Of a DNA stretch of 64,000 nt, positions 26,538-39,519 are shown one piece after another; the first letter of the stretch is position 1, and every line of letters begins with the position of its first letter. The position numbers and the translations under genes were made by a program. Source of the DNA: Flectobacillus sp. BAB-3569 (lineage in GTDB: Bacteria; Bacteroidota; Bacteroidia; Cytophagales; Spirosomataceae); NCBI RefSeq assembly GCF_002270355.1, contig NZ_NJFZ01000028.1:1-64000 (forward strand), read 5' to 3'. The notes below the pieces were generated by a model, which saw only the letters and a program-made list of their open reading frames with translations, was not told the DNA's origin and searched no databases.

Positions 26538-26569
26538 ATGGTCATTCGTGGGGGCGAATGTAAAACCAT
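26538..26569 (+). promoter_or_regulatory. TGGGGG-loop RNA hairpin 1, narK leader
   Basis: A 6-bp stem CATTCG/CGAATG (26543-26548 and 26555-26560) closes a TGGGGG hexaloop (26549-26554). A lower stem ATGGT/ACCAT (26538-26542 and 26565-26569) extends it across a 4-nt bulge. The same loop recurs in hairpin 2 and upstream of the porin and nrtA. Confidence 0.75.
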
Positions 26570-26576
26570 CTGTATT

Positions 26577-26596
26577 ATGATTGTGGGGGCAGTCAT
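26577..26596 (+). promoter_or_regulatory. TGGGGG-loop RNA hairpin 2, narK leader
   Basis: A 7-bp stem ATGATTG/CAGTCAT with one G-U pair closes TGGGGG at 26584-26589. It lies 7 nt after hairpin 1, so the two form a tandem. The conserved box CGCAAAACTCTGT begins 31 nt downstream at 26627. Confidence 0.75.
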
Positions 26597-26619
26597 GTTA
26601 CTGAAAACAGGAATAAATT

Positions 26620-27930
26620 ATGTTATCGCAAAACTCTGTATCAAACAGGGCTCCGTTGGAGTCTTTGAATGTATTGTCGTGGAAAGGAATCCAAATGAAG
26701 ACTTTTCATATTACATGGATTACTTTTTTCTTTTGCTTCTTTGGTTGGTTTGGCATTGCGCCATTGATGAAAATCGTCAAAGATGATTTGGGACTTACCA
26801 AAGCTCAAATCGGAAATGTAATGATTGCTTCGGTTTCGGCAACAATTTTTGCTCGCTTAATTATCGGACGTTTATGTGACACGTTAGGACCACGCTTGAC
26901 CTACACGGGGTTACTTATCCTAGGTTCAATTCCTGTTATTGGTATCGGATTATCCAATAGCTACGAAAGTTTCTTATTGTTTCGCCTGGCCATTGGCGTG
27001 ATCGGCGCTTCTTTTGTAATTACTCAATACCATACTTCTATGATGTTTGCTCCCCAAATTAAAGGAACAGCCAATGCTGTTGCTGGAGGCTGGGGCAATT
27101 TGGGAGGCGGTATTACCAACATGGTTATGCCCTTGGTATTTGCCGCTTTTGTTGGAGCAGGGTATACCAAACCAGAAGCTTGGAGATTAGCCATGATGAT
27201 TCCGGGAGTGATTTTATTGGTCATGGCATTCGTATATTTCCGTTTTACAAAAGACACGCCTGCTGGTAACTTCGCAGACATTACTCGCCAACAACAAGCC
27301 AAAGGTTCATTCTGGGCAGCAGCCTCTGATTTTCGTACTTGGATTTTGTTTTTGGCGTATGGAGCTTGTTTTGGTATCGAAATTACCTTTGACAATGTGG
27401 CTGCTTTATACTTTTCAGAATACTTCAAATGTGATTTAGCAACAGCAGGCTTATTAGCGGGTATCTTCGGGTTCATGAACTTGTTTGCAAGAGCCATCGG
27501 TGGAATCGTAGCCGACAAGGTAGGAGCAAAAATGGGAATGCGTGGCAAAGGCTGGTTATTGGCTGGATTATTAAGTTTGGAAGGTATCGGTATTATTCTC
27601 TTTGCTCAAACTAATTCCTTAGCAATGGCTGTGGTAGCGATGTTGGGCTTTGCTTTCTTCTTAAAAATGGCAAACGGCGCTACGTATGCAATCGTACCAT
27701 TTATTGATTCAAAAAATGTAGGTTCTGTTTCGGGAATCGTAGGTGCTGGTGGCAACCTTGGTGGTGTGCTAGCAGGCTTTTTATTCAAATCTGAAAACAT
27801 TACTTATAACCAAGCATTCTTCTATATTGGTTTGGTAGTAGGCGCTATTGGTTTAGTGGTAGCGATAAGTCGTTTCGAAAAACAATCTCAAACTTCAAAA
27901 AAATTACAGTTAGAACCAGAAATGGCTTAA
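26620..27930 (+). CDS. narK: NarK/NasA-type nitrate/nitrite transporter (MFS)
   Basis: 436 residues from ATG at 26620; an internal ATG at 26695 is possible, but the upstream LESLNVLSWKGIQMKTF stretch resembles N-termini of the family. There are about 12 membrane helices. Signatures are FFFCFFGWFGIAPLM in helix 1, RLIIGRLCDTLGPR, and the two nitrate-signature glycine-rich motifs AGGWGNLGGGITNMVMP and GIVGAGGNLGGVLAGF. It imports nitrate or exchanges nitrate and nitrite at the inner membrane. The leader carries the tandem TGGGGG hairpins. If the 26620 start is right, the conserved CGCAAAACTCTGT box lies in codons 3-7. Confidence 0.95.
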   Translation: MLSQNSVSNRAPLESLNVLSWKGIQMKTFHITWITFFFCFFGWFGIAPLMKIVKDDLGLTKAQIGNVMIASVSATIFARLIIGRLCDTLGPRLTYTGLLILGSIPVIGIGLSNSYESFLLFRLAIGVIGASFVITQYHTSMMFAPQIKGTANAVAGGWGNLGGGITNMVMPLVFAAFVGAGYTKPEAWRLAMMIPGVILLVMAFVYFRFTKDTPAGNFADITRQQQAKGSFWAAASDFRTWILFLAYGACFGIEITFDNVAALYFSEYFKCDLATAGLLAGIFGFMNLFARAIGGIVADKVGAKMGMRGKGWLLAGLLSLEGIGIILFAQTNSLAMAVVAMLGFAFFLKMANGATYAIVPFIDSKNVGSVSGIVGAGGNLGGVLAGFLFKSENITYNQAFFYIGLVVGAIGLVVAISRFEKQSQTSKKLQLEPEMA

Positions 27931-28100
27931 TAAAATTTAAGTTGTGAGGCAATAGGCATTAGGCAAATAGTTTTAAAAACTGATACATTTTGCTCAATGC
28001 CCATTGCTGCAAACCAAAAGCTTAATGTTTAGATTTAATTAAAATTTCACATTCACAATTCACAACTCATAATTCAGCACTAGTACTTCACATCTATTTT
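27931..28100. repeat. Intergenic repeat words between narK and porin
   Basis: Contains AATAGGCATTAGGCAAATAG (27950) and GCTCAATGCCCATTGC (27998), then a TTCACAATTCACAACTCATAA run (28048). These belong to two intergenic repeat families of this genome. Confidence 0.5.
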
Positions 28101-28122
28101 TCTTTTAAAACAAACAAAAAAA

Positions 28123-28173
28123 CCCGAATGAGATGGGGGTCTCAATTCGGGCGAAAATCGCAAAACTCTGTTA
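28123..28173 (+). promoter_or_regulatory. TGGGGG-loop RNA hairpin plus conserved box, porin leader
   Basis: Arms CCCGAATGAGA and TCTCAATTCGGG (one bulged A) close TGGGGG at 28134-28139. Seven nt later comes CGCAAAACTCTGTTA (28159-28173). The porin start is 25 nt further. Stem and spacing differ from the narK and nrtA copies, but loop and box are the same. Confidence 0.75.
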
Positions 28174-28198
28174 AAATTTTACAATCAGCTACAAAAGT

Positions 28199-29731
28199 AT
28201 GAAAAAAACTTACAAAATCAAGGCTGCATTAGCCTTATTGGTGGGGGTTTCTACTCACTTTGTGTCGAAGGCACAATTCTCTTTGCAAGGTCAAGTTAGA
28301 ACTCGTACTGAGGTTCGCAATGGACTAGGTAACCTAGTTCCGACAGGTTCAGATGCTGCGGCATTTACCTCTCAACGTACTCGTTTGATTTTTGGTTACA
28401 AGTGGGACCGTGTAACATTTGGAGCTACCGTTCAGGACATTCGTGTATGGGGACAAGATGCCTCAACTATCTCGAATAATGATGGTAGTCGTTTGATGTT
28501 ACATGAAGGCTGGGCTGAAGTAACCTTAGCCAACAAAGCTGACACTACCATTAAATTCAAGGCAGTTGATCAACTTTCGATCAAAATTGGTCGCCAAGAA
28601 TTAAGTTATGACGATGTTAGATTAATAGGAAATTTGGATTGGTTGCAACAAGGGCGTCGTCACGACATGGTATTACTCAAAGGAATGCACTCAGGTTGGC
28701 AGTTTGATGTAGGTTATGCTTTTAACCAAAATACTGATGCATTTAATACAACGGGGACTATTTATACACCTGCCAACACACCACAGTATATGCCAAATTC
28801 GAAAGGCACCTTGGTGGCAGTACCCGCAGGAACGATTCCGAACGGAGCGGTATTTACGAGTAATCCGAGTACAAACGGTGCTACGCAAGATTATAAATCA
28901 TTCAAAAGCGTATATATCTCCCGTAAGTTTAACCAGACTAAGTTTTCAGGCTTATTTTTCAATGATGATTTTGGGAAATACAAGATGGATACCTTGGTCG
29001 GAAACAGTTCGACAGGGTATTTATATGGCAGAGATTTTAGAGGACAAAAAGGGGTAAACAGCCGAGTAACTTACGGTTTGATGATTAACCATACTTTAGG
29101 CAATGCTTCAGGATTTGGTAAAATTGCTTTCCAAGGTGCGTATTATGCGCAAACAGGCAAAGACCGTGATGGTGTAGCAATGGATGCTTATCACTACACG
29201 CTTTCGGCGACTTATCAAAAAGGCAAATGGGCATTTACGCCAGGCTATGATGTTCTTTCAGGAAATGATGCGGTAAATCCTAGTGGCAAAAACAATCGCT
29301 TTGACCCACTTTATGGAACACCACACCGCCACTGGGGCTATATGGATTACTTTTATGTGGGTACAGGCGCACCAGCAGGAGGCTTGAACAATGCTTATTT
29401 CAAAGTAAAATATACCACCAATGTATTGACAGTTGGCTTGGATTACCACTCATTTGCTTTAAACAAAGCTATGGTAAAAACAGGCTCTGATGGTATCAAA
29501 AGCACGATTAATAACCAATTGGGTACTGAGTTAGACTTTACGTTGAATTACAACATGAACAAGTTTACCAATATCGAACTAGGCTATTCAATCATGAATG
29601 CAACCGACAGTATGCCCATTGCCAAAGCACAAAGCGCAACAGCAACTTACGACAAAACAGGTACATGGTTTTATGCGATGATTAACATTCGTCCAGATTT
29701 CTTTTACTCAAAACCAGTAGCGTTAAGGTAA
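28199..29731 (+). CDS. Alginate-export-type outer-membrane porin of the nitrate island
   Basis: 510 residues with a signal peptide (MKKTYKIKAALALLVGVSTHFVSKAQ). The mature part FSLQGQVRTRTEVRNGLG and the region KIGRQELSYDDVRLIGNLDWLQQGRRHD match alginate-export/porin-like barrels, with alternating strands to the C-terminus (FYAMINIRPDFFYSK). It lies between narK and nrtA and its leader has the same RNA hairpin and box, so it is probably a channel for nitrate or nitrite across the outer membrane. That role is inferred from context; the family name alone would suggest other substrates. Confidence 0.8.
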   Translation: MKKTYKIKAALALLVGVSTHFVSKAQFSLQGQVRTRTEVRNGLGNLVPTGSDAAAFTSQRTRLIFGYKWDRVTFGATVQDIRVWGQDASTISNNDGSRLMLHEGWAEVTLANKADTTIKFKAVDQLSIKIGRQELSYDDVRLIGNLDWLQQGRRHDMVLLKGMHSGWQFDVGYAFNQNTDAFNTTGTIYTPANTPQYMPNSKGTLVAVPAGTIPNGAVFTSNPSTNGATQDYKSFKSVYISRKFNQTKFSGLFFNDDFGKYKMDTLVGNSSTGYLYGRDFRGQKGVNSRVTYGLMINHTLGNASGFGKIAFQGAYYAQTGKDRDGVAMDAYHYTLSATYQKGKWAFTPGYDVLSGNDAVNPSGKNNRFDPLYGTPHRHWGYMDYFYVGTGAPAGGLNNAYFKVKYTTNVLTVGLDYHSFALNKAMVKTGSDGIKSTINNQLGTELDFTLNYNMNKFTNIELGYSIMNATDSMPIAKAQSATATYDKTGTWFYAMINIRPDFFYSKPVALR

Positions 29732-29734
29732 TTG

Positions 29735-29848
29735 TGAGTGGTGAATTTTGAATTGTGAGTGGCGAGTTGTGAATGATGAATATAAACATCTAGCTATCAA
29801 CACCCTAAACTCAATATCAATTCTATATTTTCACTCATAATACAAAAC
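29735..29848. repeat. GAATTGTGAGT-type repeat run
   Basis: Directly after the porin stop, words such as GAATTTTGAATTGTGAGTGG and GAGTTGTGAATGATGAAT repeat with variation. Confidence 0.45.
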
Positions 29849-29940
29849 CACTTTGTGCCTTTGTACCCGTACACTCTGTACTTCTATACCTGTACACTTT
29901 GTGCCTTTGTGCCCGTACACTTTGTGCCTTTTTACTGAAT
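29849..29940. repeat. Four tandem 23-bp repeats
   Basis: Units of exactly 23 bp start at 29849, 29872, 29895 and 29918, with consensus CACTTTGTGCCTTTGT-CCCGTA. Units 1 and 3 are nearly identical, 2 has six or seven changes, and 4 loses its last third. They lie just upstream of the nrtA leader hairpin. Confidence 0.85.
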
Positions 29941-29964
29941 TACTCATTTTTCAATATACAACTT

Positions 29965-29992
29965 CCTTAGACCGATGGGGGTCGGTCTAAGG
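29965..29992 (+). promoter_or_regulatory. TGGGGG-loop RNA hairpin, nrtA leader
   Basis: A perfect 11-bp stem with arms CCTTAGACCGA and TCGGTCTAAGG closes the TGGGGG hexaloop (29976-29981). The box CGCAAAAACTCTGTTA follows at 30025-30040 and overlaps codons 2-7 of nrtA. Confidence 0.8.
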
Positions 29993-30019: not shown

Positions 30020-31231
30020 ATGAACGCAAAAACTCTGTTAAAGCAAGTATTAGTGTTGGTAGGTTTAGTAGCTACAACACTACAATTGTCGGCAAATCCG
30101 ACGCCTTCAGGAAAGAAAATAAGATTAGGGTTTATTCCACTGACAGACTGTGCTCCGCTAGTAGCCGCTAAAGAGTTGGGATTATTCGCAAAATATGGTG
30201 TCGATGTAGAGCTTTCGAAAGAAGCCTCATGGGCCAATGTTCGTGATAAAATCTTGAATGGTGAATTGGATGGAGCACACTGTCTTTTCTCGATGCCTTT
30301 GTCAGTATATACAGGAATTGGTGGTAAAGCTGGCTCTGAAATGAAGATTGCGATGGTAATCAACAACAATGGACAAGGTATCACACTTTCGAAAGACTTC
30401 TGTGGCATGGTTGGCTTCAAAGAAGTAAACAAAGTAGCAGCTACCGTAAAAGCCGTACAAGCTCGCAAAGAAGTTACGTTTGCCATGACTTTCCCAGGTG
30501 GAACCCACGACATATGGTTACGCAACTGGTTAGCAGCAGCAGGTGTCAATCAAAAATCGGTGGGTATTATCACAATTCCTCCTCCACAAATGGTGGCAAA
30601 TATGCGTGTAGACAACATGGAAGGCTATTGCGTAGGCGAACCTTGGAATGGCGTAGCCGCTACTCAAAACGTAGGTTTTACACATATTGCGTCACAGGAT
30701 ATCTGGAAACATCACCCAGAAAAAGCTTTGGTTGTCAACAGCAAATTTGCCGCAGAGGATAAGGAAGATTTGAAAAAAGTGATGAAAGCTATTATCGAAG
30801 CTTGTCGCTGGTTAGACAATATGAGCAATCGTAAAAAAGCAGCTTCATGGTTGACTAAACCTTATTATGTAAATGCAGCATTGCCAGTAATTGAAGCACG
30901 TCTTTTAGGTTCAAACGATTTGGGTTGCGACTTGGGTGTTCAAAAGTACAAAGACGACTACATGACTTTCTATAACAACGGTGTCGTGAATATGCCTCGC
31001 AAATCTCATGCAATGTGGTTTTTGGCACAGTATGTTCGTTTTGGTTATTTAAAAGCTGAACCAAATTATAAAGCAATTGTCGAAAAATTGATTTTGGATG
31101 ATTTGTATCAAGAAGTAGCCAAAGAAATGGCGGTGCCTATGCAACCAGACATGAAGCCTTTCAAAACTACGTATGACGTAAACTTCGATCCAGCCAATAT
31201 CGACGATTATCTCAAAGCAACTCGTAAATAA
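30020..31231 (+). CDS. nrtA: Nitrate ABC transporter substrate-binding protein
   Basis: 403 residues from ATG at 30020, chosen because it opens a signal peptide (MNAKTLLKQVLVLVGLVATTLQLSA). Upstream in-frame GTG/ATG codons fall inside the leader hairpin. The mature part has the NrtA/CmpA pattern: IRLGFIPLTDCAPLVAAKELGLF, the SWANVRDKILNGELDGAH segment, AFPGG-like TFPGGTHDIWLRNWL, and PPPQMVANMRVDNMEGYCVGEPWN. No lipobox cysteine is seen. It is the periplasmic nitrate (or nitrite) binding subunit of the NrtABD importer. A stem-loop follows before nrtB. Confidence 0.93.
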   Translation: MNAKTLLKQVLVLVGLVATTLQLSANPTPSGKKIRLGFIPLTDCAPLVAAKELGLFAKYGVDVELSKEASWANVRDKILNGELDGAHCLFSMPLSVYTGIGGKAGSEMKIAMVINNNGQGITLSKDFCGMVGFKEVNKVAATVKAVQARKEVTFAMTFPGGTHDIWLRNWLAAAGVNQKSVGIITIPPPQMVANMRVDNMEGYCVGEPWNGVAATQNVGFTHIASQDIWKHHPEKALVVNSKFAAEDKEDLKKVMKAIIEACRWLDNMSNRKKAASWLTKPYYVNAALPVIEARLLGSNDLGCDLGVQKYKDDYMTFYNNGVVNMPRKSHAMWFLAQYVRFGYLKAEPNYKAIVEKLILDDLYQEVAKEMAVPMQPDMKPFKTTYDVNFDPANIDDYLKATRK

Positions 31232-38064: not shown

Positions 38065-39519
38065 ATGCGAGACTACTCTTTAGTTAAAATAAATCTGACT
38101 GGTGGCATTGCTTCGCCAGGGATGCTCGAAGGAATTCTTTTGATGGCACACAAAGCAGGTGTTAAAGAAGTAAGTATCGGTGCTCGTCAGCAATTATTAA
38201 TGTGGGTAAAGGCTGATACTCAGCGTGGTTCGGGCTTGCCTAGCCTACGCGAAAGCCTTGAAGCAATGCACATTGATTTTGAAATTGATACCCACCAATA
38301 TCCTAACATTATTTCGTCTTATTGTGCCCAAGAGGTATTCCAAACGGGACAATGGCTATCGGAAGGCATTTATCGTGACTTACTAGATGGTTTTGATTTT
38401 CAACCTCAACTCAAAATCAATATATCAGACTATCAACAGTCATTCACGCCCTTTTTTACGGGCAACTTAAACTTCATTGCATCTTCGATTCCCAATTTCT
38501 GGTATTTATATATTCGTCAAAAGCAATCCAATACTATTTTTAGATTTCCCTTGTTGATTTATACACTTGAAATCTCCAAAGTTTCAAAACGATTAGAGGG
38601 TATTCTATTATCAGGAACTGATTTATCGGAAGAGGAAATTTATGAAAAAATGATTGCCCAAGGCGAAATCATTTCACAGCTAGTACAAGAAGATTTGGTT
38701 CTACCGCAATTCATGTTGCCTTATTACGAAGGTTTCAATCGTTATGGCAACAAAACTTGGTTGGGAATCTACCGTCGTCACGAGACTTTTGAGGTGGCTT
38801 TTTTATTAGATGTTTGTAAAATTTGTTTAGATACCAAAGTCGGACAGATTTGTACAACCCCTTGGAAATCGCTCATTATTAAAGGTATCGAAAACGAAGA
38901 TAGGGTATTGTGGGACAAACTCTTAGGAAAATATGGTATCAACGTGCGTCATGCAGCCAACGAGCTCAATTGGCAAGTAGAAGATCACTGTCAAGAAGGA
39001 TTAGCACTCAAAAACACGATTATCCGTGAATTTGACCAAGAGGATATTCGTACGTTTGGTTTGTGTTTTGCTATTCAGACTCGTTCAAAGTCAGAGGTAT
39101 TTGGTTCGGTTGTAATCAAAAAGCGAAAAATACTCGCAGGATTAACGCAGGTATATGATGTGTATCACACGGTAGATTTTAATCCAAATACTCGTCAATT
39201 GGTTTTATTTGAAAAAGGACTTCATAAAGCACATATTGCCGAAATCCTCCAACGACTCACCAAACGATACTATCATAGAAGTACCGCTTCAATCACAGAA
39301 AAGCCTGCACAACCTCAAGCGAACCCCACAAATACGCATCAAGTGCATCAATGCAAAGTATGTATGACCATTTATGACGAAAAATTGGGCGATTCACAGC
39401 AAGGAATAAAGGCAGGAACGAAGTTTGAGGAATTACCAGCCAGCTATTGCTGTCCTGTTTGCGATTCAGAAAAGGAAAACTTTGAGGTAAAAACAGTAGA
39501 AACAACGTATCAGTTGTGA
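38065..39519 (+). CDS. Rubredoxin-tailed protein with sulfite/nitrite-reductase-like half-domains
   Basis: 484 residues. The N-terminal 390 residues (LVKINLTGGIASPGMLEGILLMAHKAGVKEVSIGARQQLLMWV) look like the ferredoxin-like halves of sirohaem nitrite/sulfite reductases. However, the C-x5-C/C-x3-C sirohaem ligands are absent; only scattered cysteines such as VCKICLDTKVGQICTTPW occur. The C-terminal 60 residues are a rubredoxin with both iron-binding pairs (CKVCMTIYD and CCPVCDSEK). The protein sits at the end of the nitrate island and is probably an electron carrier for nitrate or nitrite reduction. Catalysis by the N-terminal part is unlikely without the ligands. It is cytoplasmic, with no signal peptide. 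Confidence 0.8.
   Translation: MRDYSLVKINLTGGIASPGMLEGILLMAHKAGVKEVSIGARQQLLMWVKADTQRGSGLPSLRESLEAMHIDFEIDTHQYPNIISSYCAQEVFQTGQWLSEGIYRDLLDGFDFQPQLKINISDYQQSFTPFFTGNLNFIASSIPNFWYLYIRQKQSNTIFRFPLLIYTLEISKVSKRLEGILLSGTDLSEEEIYEKMIAQGEIISQLVQEDLVLPQFMLPYYEGFNRYGNKTWLGIYRRHETFEVAFLLDVCKICLDTKVGQICTTPWKSLIIKGIENEDRVLWDKLLGKYGINVRHAANELNWQVEDHCQEGLALKNTIIREFDQEDIRTFGLCFAIQTRSKSEVFGSVVIKKRKILAGLTQVYDVYHTVDFNPNTRQLVLFEKGLHKAHIAEILQRLTKRYYHRSTASITEKPAQPQANPTNTHQVHQCKVCMTIYDEKLGDSQQGIKAGTKFEELPASYCCPVCDSEKENFEVKTVETTYQL

Follow-up and report, generated by a model that had tools for sequence, protein, structure and literature searches.

What do the short hairpins that precede the nitrate-uptake genes of Flectobacillus sp. 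BAB-3569 do, and with what partner? In the window, the 64,000 nucleotides (nt) analysed here (contig NZ_NJFZ01000028.1, positions 1 to 64,000), a first-pass annotation made from the letters alone had placed four hairpins with the loop TGGGGG upstream of narK, a porin gene and nrtA, and had likened them to the targets of ANTAR antiterminators. We conclude that a small RNA (sRNA) probably targets these hairpins: it would be encoded antisense to the porin leader, act in trans by base pairing and repress the nitrate-uptake mRNAs at initiation. The computed support consists of a promoter and terminator signature, structure on the antisense strand, complementarity at both loop and seed, and loops that match lineage by lineage.

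Hairpins with a shared loop in three leaders

The genes concerned and the hairpins of the two predicted targets are as follows.

26620 to 27930, plus strand: narK, predicted target, MFS transporter
28199 to 29731, plus strand: porin gene, cis-antisense partner, Alginate_exp family
30020 to 31231, plus strand: nrtA, predicted target, NMT1_2 family; start taken at 30020 rather than at the longest open reading frame (ORF) start, 29975
26538 to 26569, plus strand: first narK leader hairpin, loop TGGGGG (sequence and fold)
26577 to 26596, plus strand: second narK leader hairpin, loop TGGGGG (sequence and fold)
29965 to 29992, plus strand: nrtA leader hairpin, loop TGGGGG (sequence and fold)

All four hairpins are present in the window sequence where they had been placed, the fourth in the porin leader, and all have pairing stems and the loop TGGGGG. 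The two in the narK leader stand in tandem with a spacing of 7 nt, as described, and the porin-leader stem has a single bulged base on its 3' side. The tandem arrangement is not universal: two hairpins occur in the window's narK leader and in some porin leaders, and one each in the window's nrtA and porin leaders.

Alignment of the porin identified 394 related loci, 80 of which were taken; these relatives come from Cytophagales, Chitinophagales and Sphingobacteriales, plus one record titled Flavobacterium, and a Flectobacillus longus record carries a porin 98% identical to that of the window. As a bare hexamer TGGGGG is not enriched (13 matches in the window versus 14.3 in shuffles). Outside ORFs, over 88 loci, 39 of its 116 occurrences are closed by a stem of at least 5 base pairs (bp), compared with 0.5-3% for common A/T-rich hexamers; the next-highest loop hexamers, the complement CCCCCA aside, are TGGCGG/CCGCCA and TCATGA. 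Near the starts of cluster genes 52 of 99 occurrences lie in hairpin loops, or 45 of 92 once a coding site in cobA is set aside; the mis-set regions of the L075 porin and L115 nirB were excluded from these gene-start counts and from the own- versus foreign-loop counts given below. The cobA site, at +25 in seven loci (L089, L099, L108, L109, L110, L120 and L122), is a coding hairpin with the loop TGGGGG (stem ACTCG/CGGGT), and the sRNA loop predicted for these loci fits it; it may reflect codon choice in a conserved glycine-rich motif, or be another sRNA site.

A set of 30 TGGGGG-loop hairpins had 87.1% of cells paired and a covariation score of 1.089, against 0.263 in shuffled and at most 0.225 in slid alignments; the rows had been picked for at least four pairs beside the loop, so the inner pairs are partly selected. 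Pairing is thus mostly kept where stems change, which agrees with the earlier proposal of an RNA structure with compensated stem changes. The accompanying statement that the stem sequences are unrelated holds between genes; within one gene the innermost pairs are conserved across species. A covariance model of the hairpin (R1) gave three matches in the genome of the strain itself at an expectation value (E) of at most 2, all three inside the nitrate cluster, the nrtA hairpin being lost to filters. Thirty loci were taken from 61 family genomes: the 11 that gave the lowest E are in nitrate clusters or adjoin cobA, and most others are not. The hairpins are therefore real and not due to chance, yet they are half of the element.

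The same data bear on the possibility that the repeats are DNA operators for a NarL-type regulator or another transcription factor. A PilJ-domain kinase and a NarL-type regulator are indeed encoded in the cluster. However, the arms vary around a fixed, asymmetric centre, the opposite of what an operator would present, and the stem changes are compensated. On these two grounds the operator was rejected; we regard it as very improbable, in agreement with the preference for RNA already expressed in the first-pass annotation. Variants such as TGGCGG and GTCGCA do not fit three further ideas, which were dropped after inspection by eye: that the loop pairs with the anti-Shine-Dalgarno sequence, that the hairpins are CsrA-type sites, and that loop and box pair in cis.

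A second shared sequence and a predicted antisense RNA

The other half, overlooked at first, is a box, GCAAAA(A)CTCTGT, common to narK, the porin leader and nrtA (positions 26628, 28160 and 30026). These are the only three matches in the window, where 0.00 are expected. The box lies in the first codons of narK and nrtA, in different frames, and upstream of the gene at the porin. The whole genome, of 6.6 Mb, holds 11 matches to the pattern, and for the other eight no such hairpin was seen in the 120 bases upstream.

28157 to 28171, plus strand: copy of the box in the porin leader, ATCGCAAAACTCTGT, complementary to the sRNA seed (sequence)
26625 to 26639, plus strand: putative seed site in narK at +6 to +20, with 15 nt exactly complementary to the sRNA (duplex -22.5 kcal/mol)
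30026 to 30042, plus strand: putative seed site in nrtA at +7 to +23, complementary to the sRNA but for one bulge (duplex -19.6 kcal/mol)

Loop and box are brought together by the minus strand opposite the porin leader. The hairpin of that leader is most likely the terminator of a predicted antisense sRNA, and the shared loop and box are most likely complements of this RNA. Its predicted sequence in the window is UGAUUGUAAAAUUUUAACAGAGUUUUGCGAUUUUCGCCCGAAUUGAGACCCCCAUCUCAUUCGGGUUUUUUU, with the following parts.

28116 to 28187, minus strand: predicted small RNA, 72 nt, read from 28187 to 28116 (promoter and terminator layout, covariance model R2, fold)
28192 to 28199, minus strand: antisense -7 box TACTTTTG, a TAnnTTTG match that overlaps the porin start codon
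28219 to 28221, minus strand: TTG, possible -33 element, 19 nt from the -7 box (sequence)
28156 to 28186, minus strand: predicted 5' hairpin of the sRNA, containing the seed (fold; antisense-only folding signal over 76 loci)
28123 to 28151, minus strand: predicted terminator hairpin, loop CCCCCA, the plus strand of which is the porin hairpin with loop TGGGGG (sequence and fold)
28116 to 28122, minus strand: terminator U-run (sequence)

TAnnTTTG is the -7 promoter box of flavobacteria (PMC9723704), and the predicted 5' end of the sRNA was set 5 nt after the box following the same source. An antisense TAnnTTTG overlaps the start of 65 of 86 porins, compared with 35 of 1011 non-porin ORFs and 0-9% of each other cluster gene, and its placement relative to porin starts is -7 (40) or -3 (21), with few elsewhere. 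In 24 of 80 loci a TTG stands 19 or 20 nt upstream of the box. One layout is common to most porin leaders: an A-run, a GC-rich hairpin, 30-45 nt and the ATG. Among the 77 porin hairpins at -120 to -40, a U-tail is present on the antisense strand in 65 and on the sense strand in none; ten more loci have no hairpin there. Box and terminator occur together in 80 of 87 porin loci, the box being exact in 67 and having one mismatch in 13, and delimit an RNA with a median of 74 nt (the near-duplicate L028 was omitted from the box, box plus terminator and U-tail counts). A sigma-70 and terminator scan, not designed for Bacteroidota promoters, did not list the porin terminator, the stem of which is bulged. 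These signatures suggest that the sRNA is transcribed from a promoter of its own and ends at an intrinsic terminator.

The porin leaders of L078, L079, L096, L106, L084, L103 and L109 contain a further sense hairpin, identical in its loop, some 40-43 nt upstream of the terminator hairpin. In Spirosoma-type loci an ATG at the antisense box opens a five-codon ORF (MKKSS, MKKTS, MKKKG, MKNRP etc.) with its stop at codon 6; this was seen in seven of eight loci (L089, L102, L104, L108, L110, L120 and L122, at -138 to -265 in the porin leaders; not in L099). The porin of these loci starts some 140-265 nt beyond the small ORF, which could be a leader peptide or a relic of an old start. One of them, L089, from a record titled Flavobacterium sp. 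SUN052, has a Spirosoma-type leader, perhaps through transfer or contamination.

Strand and conservation of the predicted small RNA

In 73 of 76 loci (the 80 sRNA loci minus L081, L087, L105 and L039) it is the antisense strand on which the interval between promoter and terminator folds more stably. The mean z score against dinucleotide shuffles, which remove the effect of base composition from the strand comparison, is -2.74 on the antisense and +0.19 on the sense strand, with p<=0.05 in 48 and 4 loci, respectively. RNAalifold gave no structure on the 58-row alignment A3, because MAFFT had misaligned the terminators (for A3, 18 named loci and L038 were dropped and 58 of the remaining 61 were aligned). 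A covariance model of promoter plus RNA, R2, was therefore built from 18 of its rows with the structure set by hand (alignment A4), none of them from the genus of the window.

R2 recovers the element of the window (28116-28199) with 42.2 bits and E 3.8e-4. At E<=1 it gave 62 matches in 81 loci (L028, L043, L049, L060, L075, L079 and L106 being left out of the search), 60 of them at a porin start, in 60 of the 81 loci, and two elsewhere. The 58 distinct rows fitted to R2 (alignment A5, which includes one non-porin row, L045:11739) have 92.8% of cells paired, with changes on both sides of 15 of the 16 pairs. The loop of the porin hairpin varies by lineage (TGGGGG, TGGCGG, TGAGGG, TGGCAG, GTGCAG, GTCGCA and others).

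Beyond the porin loci, R2 matched at E<=0.1 in at least seven of 296 genomes of the phylum, antisense to the porin in four (E 2.2e-9 to 0.027) and elsewhere in three (E 0.011-0.086); this tally is a lower bound because the strict first pass lost the window's own copy. The porin is carried by eight of the 296, and matches fall in 4 of 8 carriers versus 3 of 288 other genomes (Fisher p 7.6e-6). Reading of the eight porin genomes found the hairpin in six, one of these without a clear U-run. In one porin genome a second R2 match (L160, G034:C34:75785-75868; 47.8 bits, E 1.6e-4) is not antisense to the porin and adjoins an ORF of 404 amino acids; it is possibly a paralogous sRNA. Overall, homologues of the sRNA with lineage-specific loops are predicted in Cytophagales, Chitinophagales and Sphingobacteriales.

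Predicted pairing with the narK and nrtA messengers

The loop hexamers CCCCCA and UGGGGG pair with -10.7 kcal/mol. In the mRNAs the loop site lies 5' and the seed site 3', and in the sRNA the seed lies 5' and the terminator 3'; this collinear, antiparallel order means that loop and seed contacts can form together. With cobA excluded, the loop of a lineage's own sRNA finds its counterpart in a hairpin of at least 5 bp in 16 of 543 other leaders, compared with 14 of 16833 for foreign loops; with cobA included the figures are 22 of 588 and 16 of 18228.

Seeds and duplexes were scored on the 80 sRNA loci after omission of those with doubtful ends (L081, L087, L099, L102, L105, L109, L039, L121 and L048). 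An exact seed match longer than that of every unrelated sRNA was obtained for 6 of 59 narK, 6 of 57 nrtA and 6 of 52 nirB leaders, where about 0.8-0.9 are expected for each, and for 0 or 1 of each other gene. The longest matches, within nt 7-32 of the sRNA, involve narK and nrtA in Flectobacillus, nrtA in Arcicella and Pseudarcicella, and nirB in Mucilaginibacter, one Pedobacter and Fibrisoma. Where Flectobacillus nrtA has TTAAA that of Pseudarcicella has TTAGAAA, and this change is matched by UUUCUAA in the Pseudarcicella sRNA. Complementarity in trans, conserved or co-varying, is thus predicted for narK and nrtA of Flectobacillus, nrtA of Arcicella and Pseudarcicella and nirB of Mucilaginibacter, and not for all lineages. 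The nirB leaders of Chitinophagaceae loci (e.g. L055, L056, L057 and L059) share CGATTGCTTGC upstream, seen by eye and unrelated to the sRNA seed.

The antisense RNA could be real but act on the porin in cis only, the narK and nrtA matches being leftovers of leader duplication or chance. The porin copy is the only one found in many lineages, and its complementarity is perfect by position. Against this, the box recurs in three different coding contexts, far above expectation, and seed and loop both recur with matched changes; Spirosoma-type loci keep an sRNA-like unit though the porin start is about 200-330 nt distant; and the stems at narK and nrtA bear no relation to that of the porin, which means that they were not copied from its leader. 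We consider action in cis alone quite improbable.

Several observations nevertheless weigh against repression in trans by the sRNA. Energies of unfolded duplexes are noisy: the cognate sRNA is the best in 12 of 52 nirB, 5 of 57 nrtA and 2 of 59 narK, and by this measure narK of the window scores better with ten foreign sRNAs than with its own. Some of the winning seeds are short and may be due to chance (e.g. L120 narK, L095 nrtA and L065 nirB). The nrtA box is coding, and protein constraint may therefore keep it. The narK loop of Pseudarcicella, TGGGGG, does not match the sRNA of that genus, which fits TGAGGG. Target stems have a weak G-U bias (18 G-U versus 8 A-C) and porin stems none (8 versus 9). 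No trans site was seen in Runella or most Chitinophagaceae, the targets being confined to part of the lineages; R2 found no match at the porin in 21 of 81 loci, and two divergent genomes among the eight porin carriers are without the element. Finally, the relatives are not independent.

Cluster context and protein candidates

The window holds a nitrate-assimilation cluster that comprises, under names based partly on homology and partly on recall, a NarL-type regulator, a PilJ-domain kinase, a nirD-like Rieske protein, nirB, cobA, narK, the alginate-export-like porin, nrtA, nrtB, nrtC and a fused molybdopterin reductase. An ORF at 38065-39519 combines a nitrite/sulfite-reductase ferredoxin-like half domain with a C-terminal rubredoxin, and its family occurs in 63 of 86 nitrate loci. 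Positions 29849-29935, ahead of the nrtA hairpin, are taken up by an imperfect 23-base tandem repeat (CACTTTGTGCC...).

An RNA-binding protein, ANTAR-like or other, might recognise the hairpins in the sense leaders with no small RNA involved. A fixed loop on free stems, with tandem hairpins 35-46 nt apart in several leaders, has the shape of an ANTAR target. Yet when 1248 ORFs from 86 loci were clustered, no cluster-encoded candidate of this kind emerged among the frequent families, which comprise enzymes, transporters, a response regulator (30 loci), a kinase (23) and, recognised by eye, a Crp-like regulator (40). No ANTAR domain scored over the cut-off in 59 relatives, the genome of the strain included. 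Moreover, such a protein would leave the shared box, the antisense promoter, the U-run and the antisense-only folding unexplained, and we judge this explanation unlikely.

Proposed mechanism and its reach

In the mechanism that we favour, repression by the sRNA, the minus strand carries the gene across from the porin leader, with a promoter that overlaps the porin start codon and an intrinsic terminator as its end. The terminator loop CCCCCA would kiss the UGGGGG loop of the leader hairpins of narK and nrtA, and the 5' seed would pair with the first codons (+6 to +20 of narK, +7 to +23 of nrtA). Start by the ribosome would be blocked, and nitrate uptake reduced. Flavobacterium mRNAs have no Shine-Dalgarno sequences and show reduced pairing from -20 to +20 (PMC6847099), so that a duplex in this region should repress. 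The porin mRNA, the leader of which is a perfect complement, may be silenced in cis, or may act as a sponge that frees the other targets when abundant. Production of the transcript, repression by pairing, the sponge role and the signal are inferred.

To our knowledge, few Bacteroidota small RNAs have known targets. We tentatively offer a broader possibility, that this is a Bacteroidota-wide, Hfq-independent sRNA that coordinates nitrate assimilation. Its terminator hexaloop and 5' seed would have been rewritten repeatedly in step with changing targets (narK and nrtA in Flectobacillus, nrtA in Arcicella, nirB in Mucilaginibacter, nirD in Emticicia). The promoter and terminator, and their location, would not have changed over the same time; the porin leader would serve both as the template of the gene and as a sponge that couples the outer-membrane porin to inner-membrane transport. 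The favoured mechanism, if right, would provide a natural series of sRNA-target pairs with matched changes in loop and seed across three orders, and would point to nitrate uptake being controlled post-transcriptionally in bacteria common in soil and fresh water. No recognisable Hfq was found in the relatives searched (0 of 19; the same search matched 5 of 14 control genomes), which bears on how such RNAs find their targets there. A porin start codon that doubles as the promoter of an antisense regulator would also be an unusual constraint to persist over such a range.

Comparison with known systems

The element had been supposed not to be a described RNA, and searches of the window and six related loci agree, with no Rfam match at the gathering score; weak matches lie below threshold (atoC in the window with 25.8 of the 50 bits needed; NsiR1 in L064 with 22.8 of 39). 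A literature search, beyond the reach of which lay most subscription papers and preprints, turned up no paper recognisable as dealing with this RNA.

ANTAR target hexaloops have A at position 1 and G at position 4, a rule that UGGGGG, UGGCGG, UGAGGG and UGGCAG, all with U at position 1, do not follow. The targets of ANTAR proteins such as NasR (PMC3369931, PMC7496416) resemble the element in being hexaloop hairpins, sometimes in tandem, in the leaders of nitrate genes. They differ in their loop, in the ANTAR protein, for which the 59 relatives gave no domain over the cut-off, and in the complementarity to an antisense RNA found here. The likeness to NasR targets proposed at first is not supported: the domain search gave two weak matches below the cut-off in the 59 relatives, none in 14 control genomes and three over the cut-off among 198 genomes elsewhere in the phylum, and ANTAR was rejected on these results. 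What stands of the first interpretation is a conserved RNA element; the part of the porin hairpin as probable terminator of an antisense sRNA had been missed. The earlier reading had found a real RNA element and given it the wrong partner, the partner being most likely a small RNA on the other strand.

Among small RNAs, the enterobacterial NarS (PMC8139620) is likewise tied to a narK locus, deriving from the narK 3' untranslated region and repressing the nitrite transporter nirC, but it is cut from the narK mRNA and bound to Hfq, in another phylum and at another place. OxyS of E. coli pairs through loops with a single mRNA, fhlA, at two points, one of them near the ribosome entry site (PMC2946933). 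It is a separate gene and works with Hfq, whereas the sRNA gene predicted here is antisense to one of its targets and no Hfq was found in 19 relatives, and the sequences are unrelated; by analogy, the predicted sRNA would work as OxyS does on fhlA, yet it is not a member of the OxyS family. Within the phylum, SnoA of Bacteroides thetaiotaomicron (PMC13370916) is also an RNA antisense to a nitrogen-oxide gene, with a proposed action on a second gene. From its description, SnoA is set apart by its position, antisense to the hcp promoter beside hcpR where ours faces a nitrate porin, and by a proposed action with the protein HcpR on promoter DNA; the available part of that paper makes no link to a porin, narK or nrtA. 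Within the phylum SnoA comes closest as an idea, though it concerns other genes.

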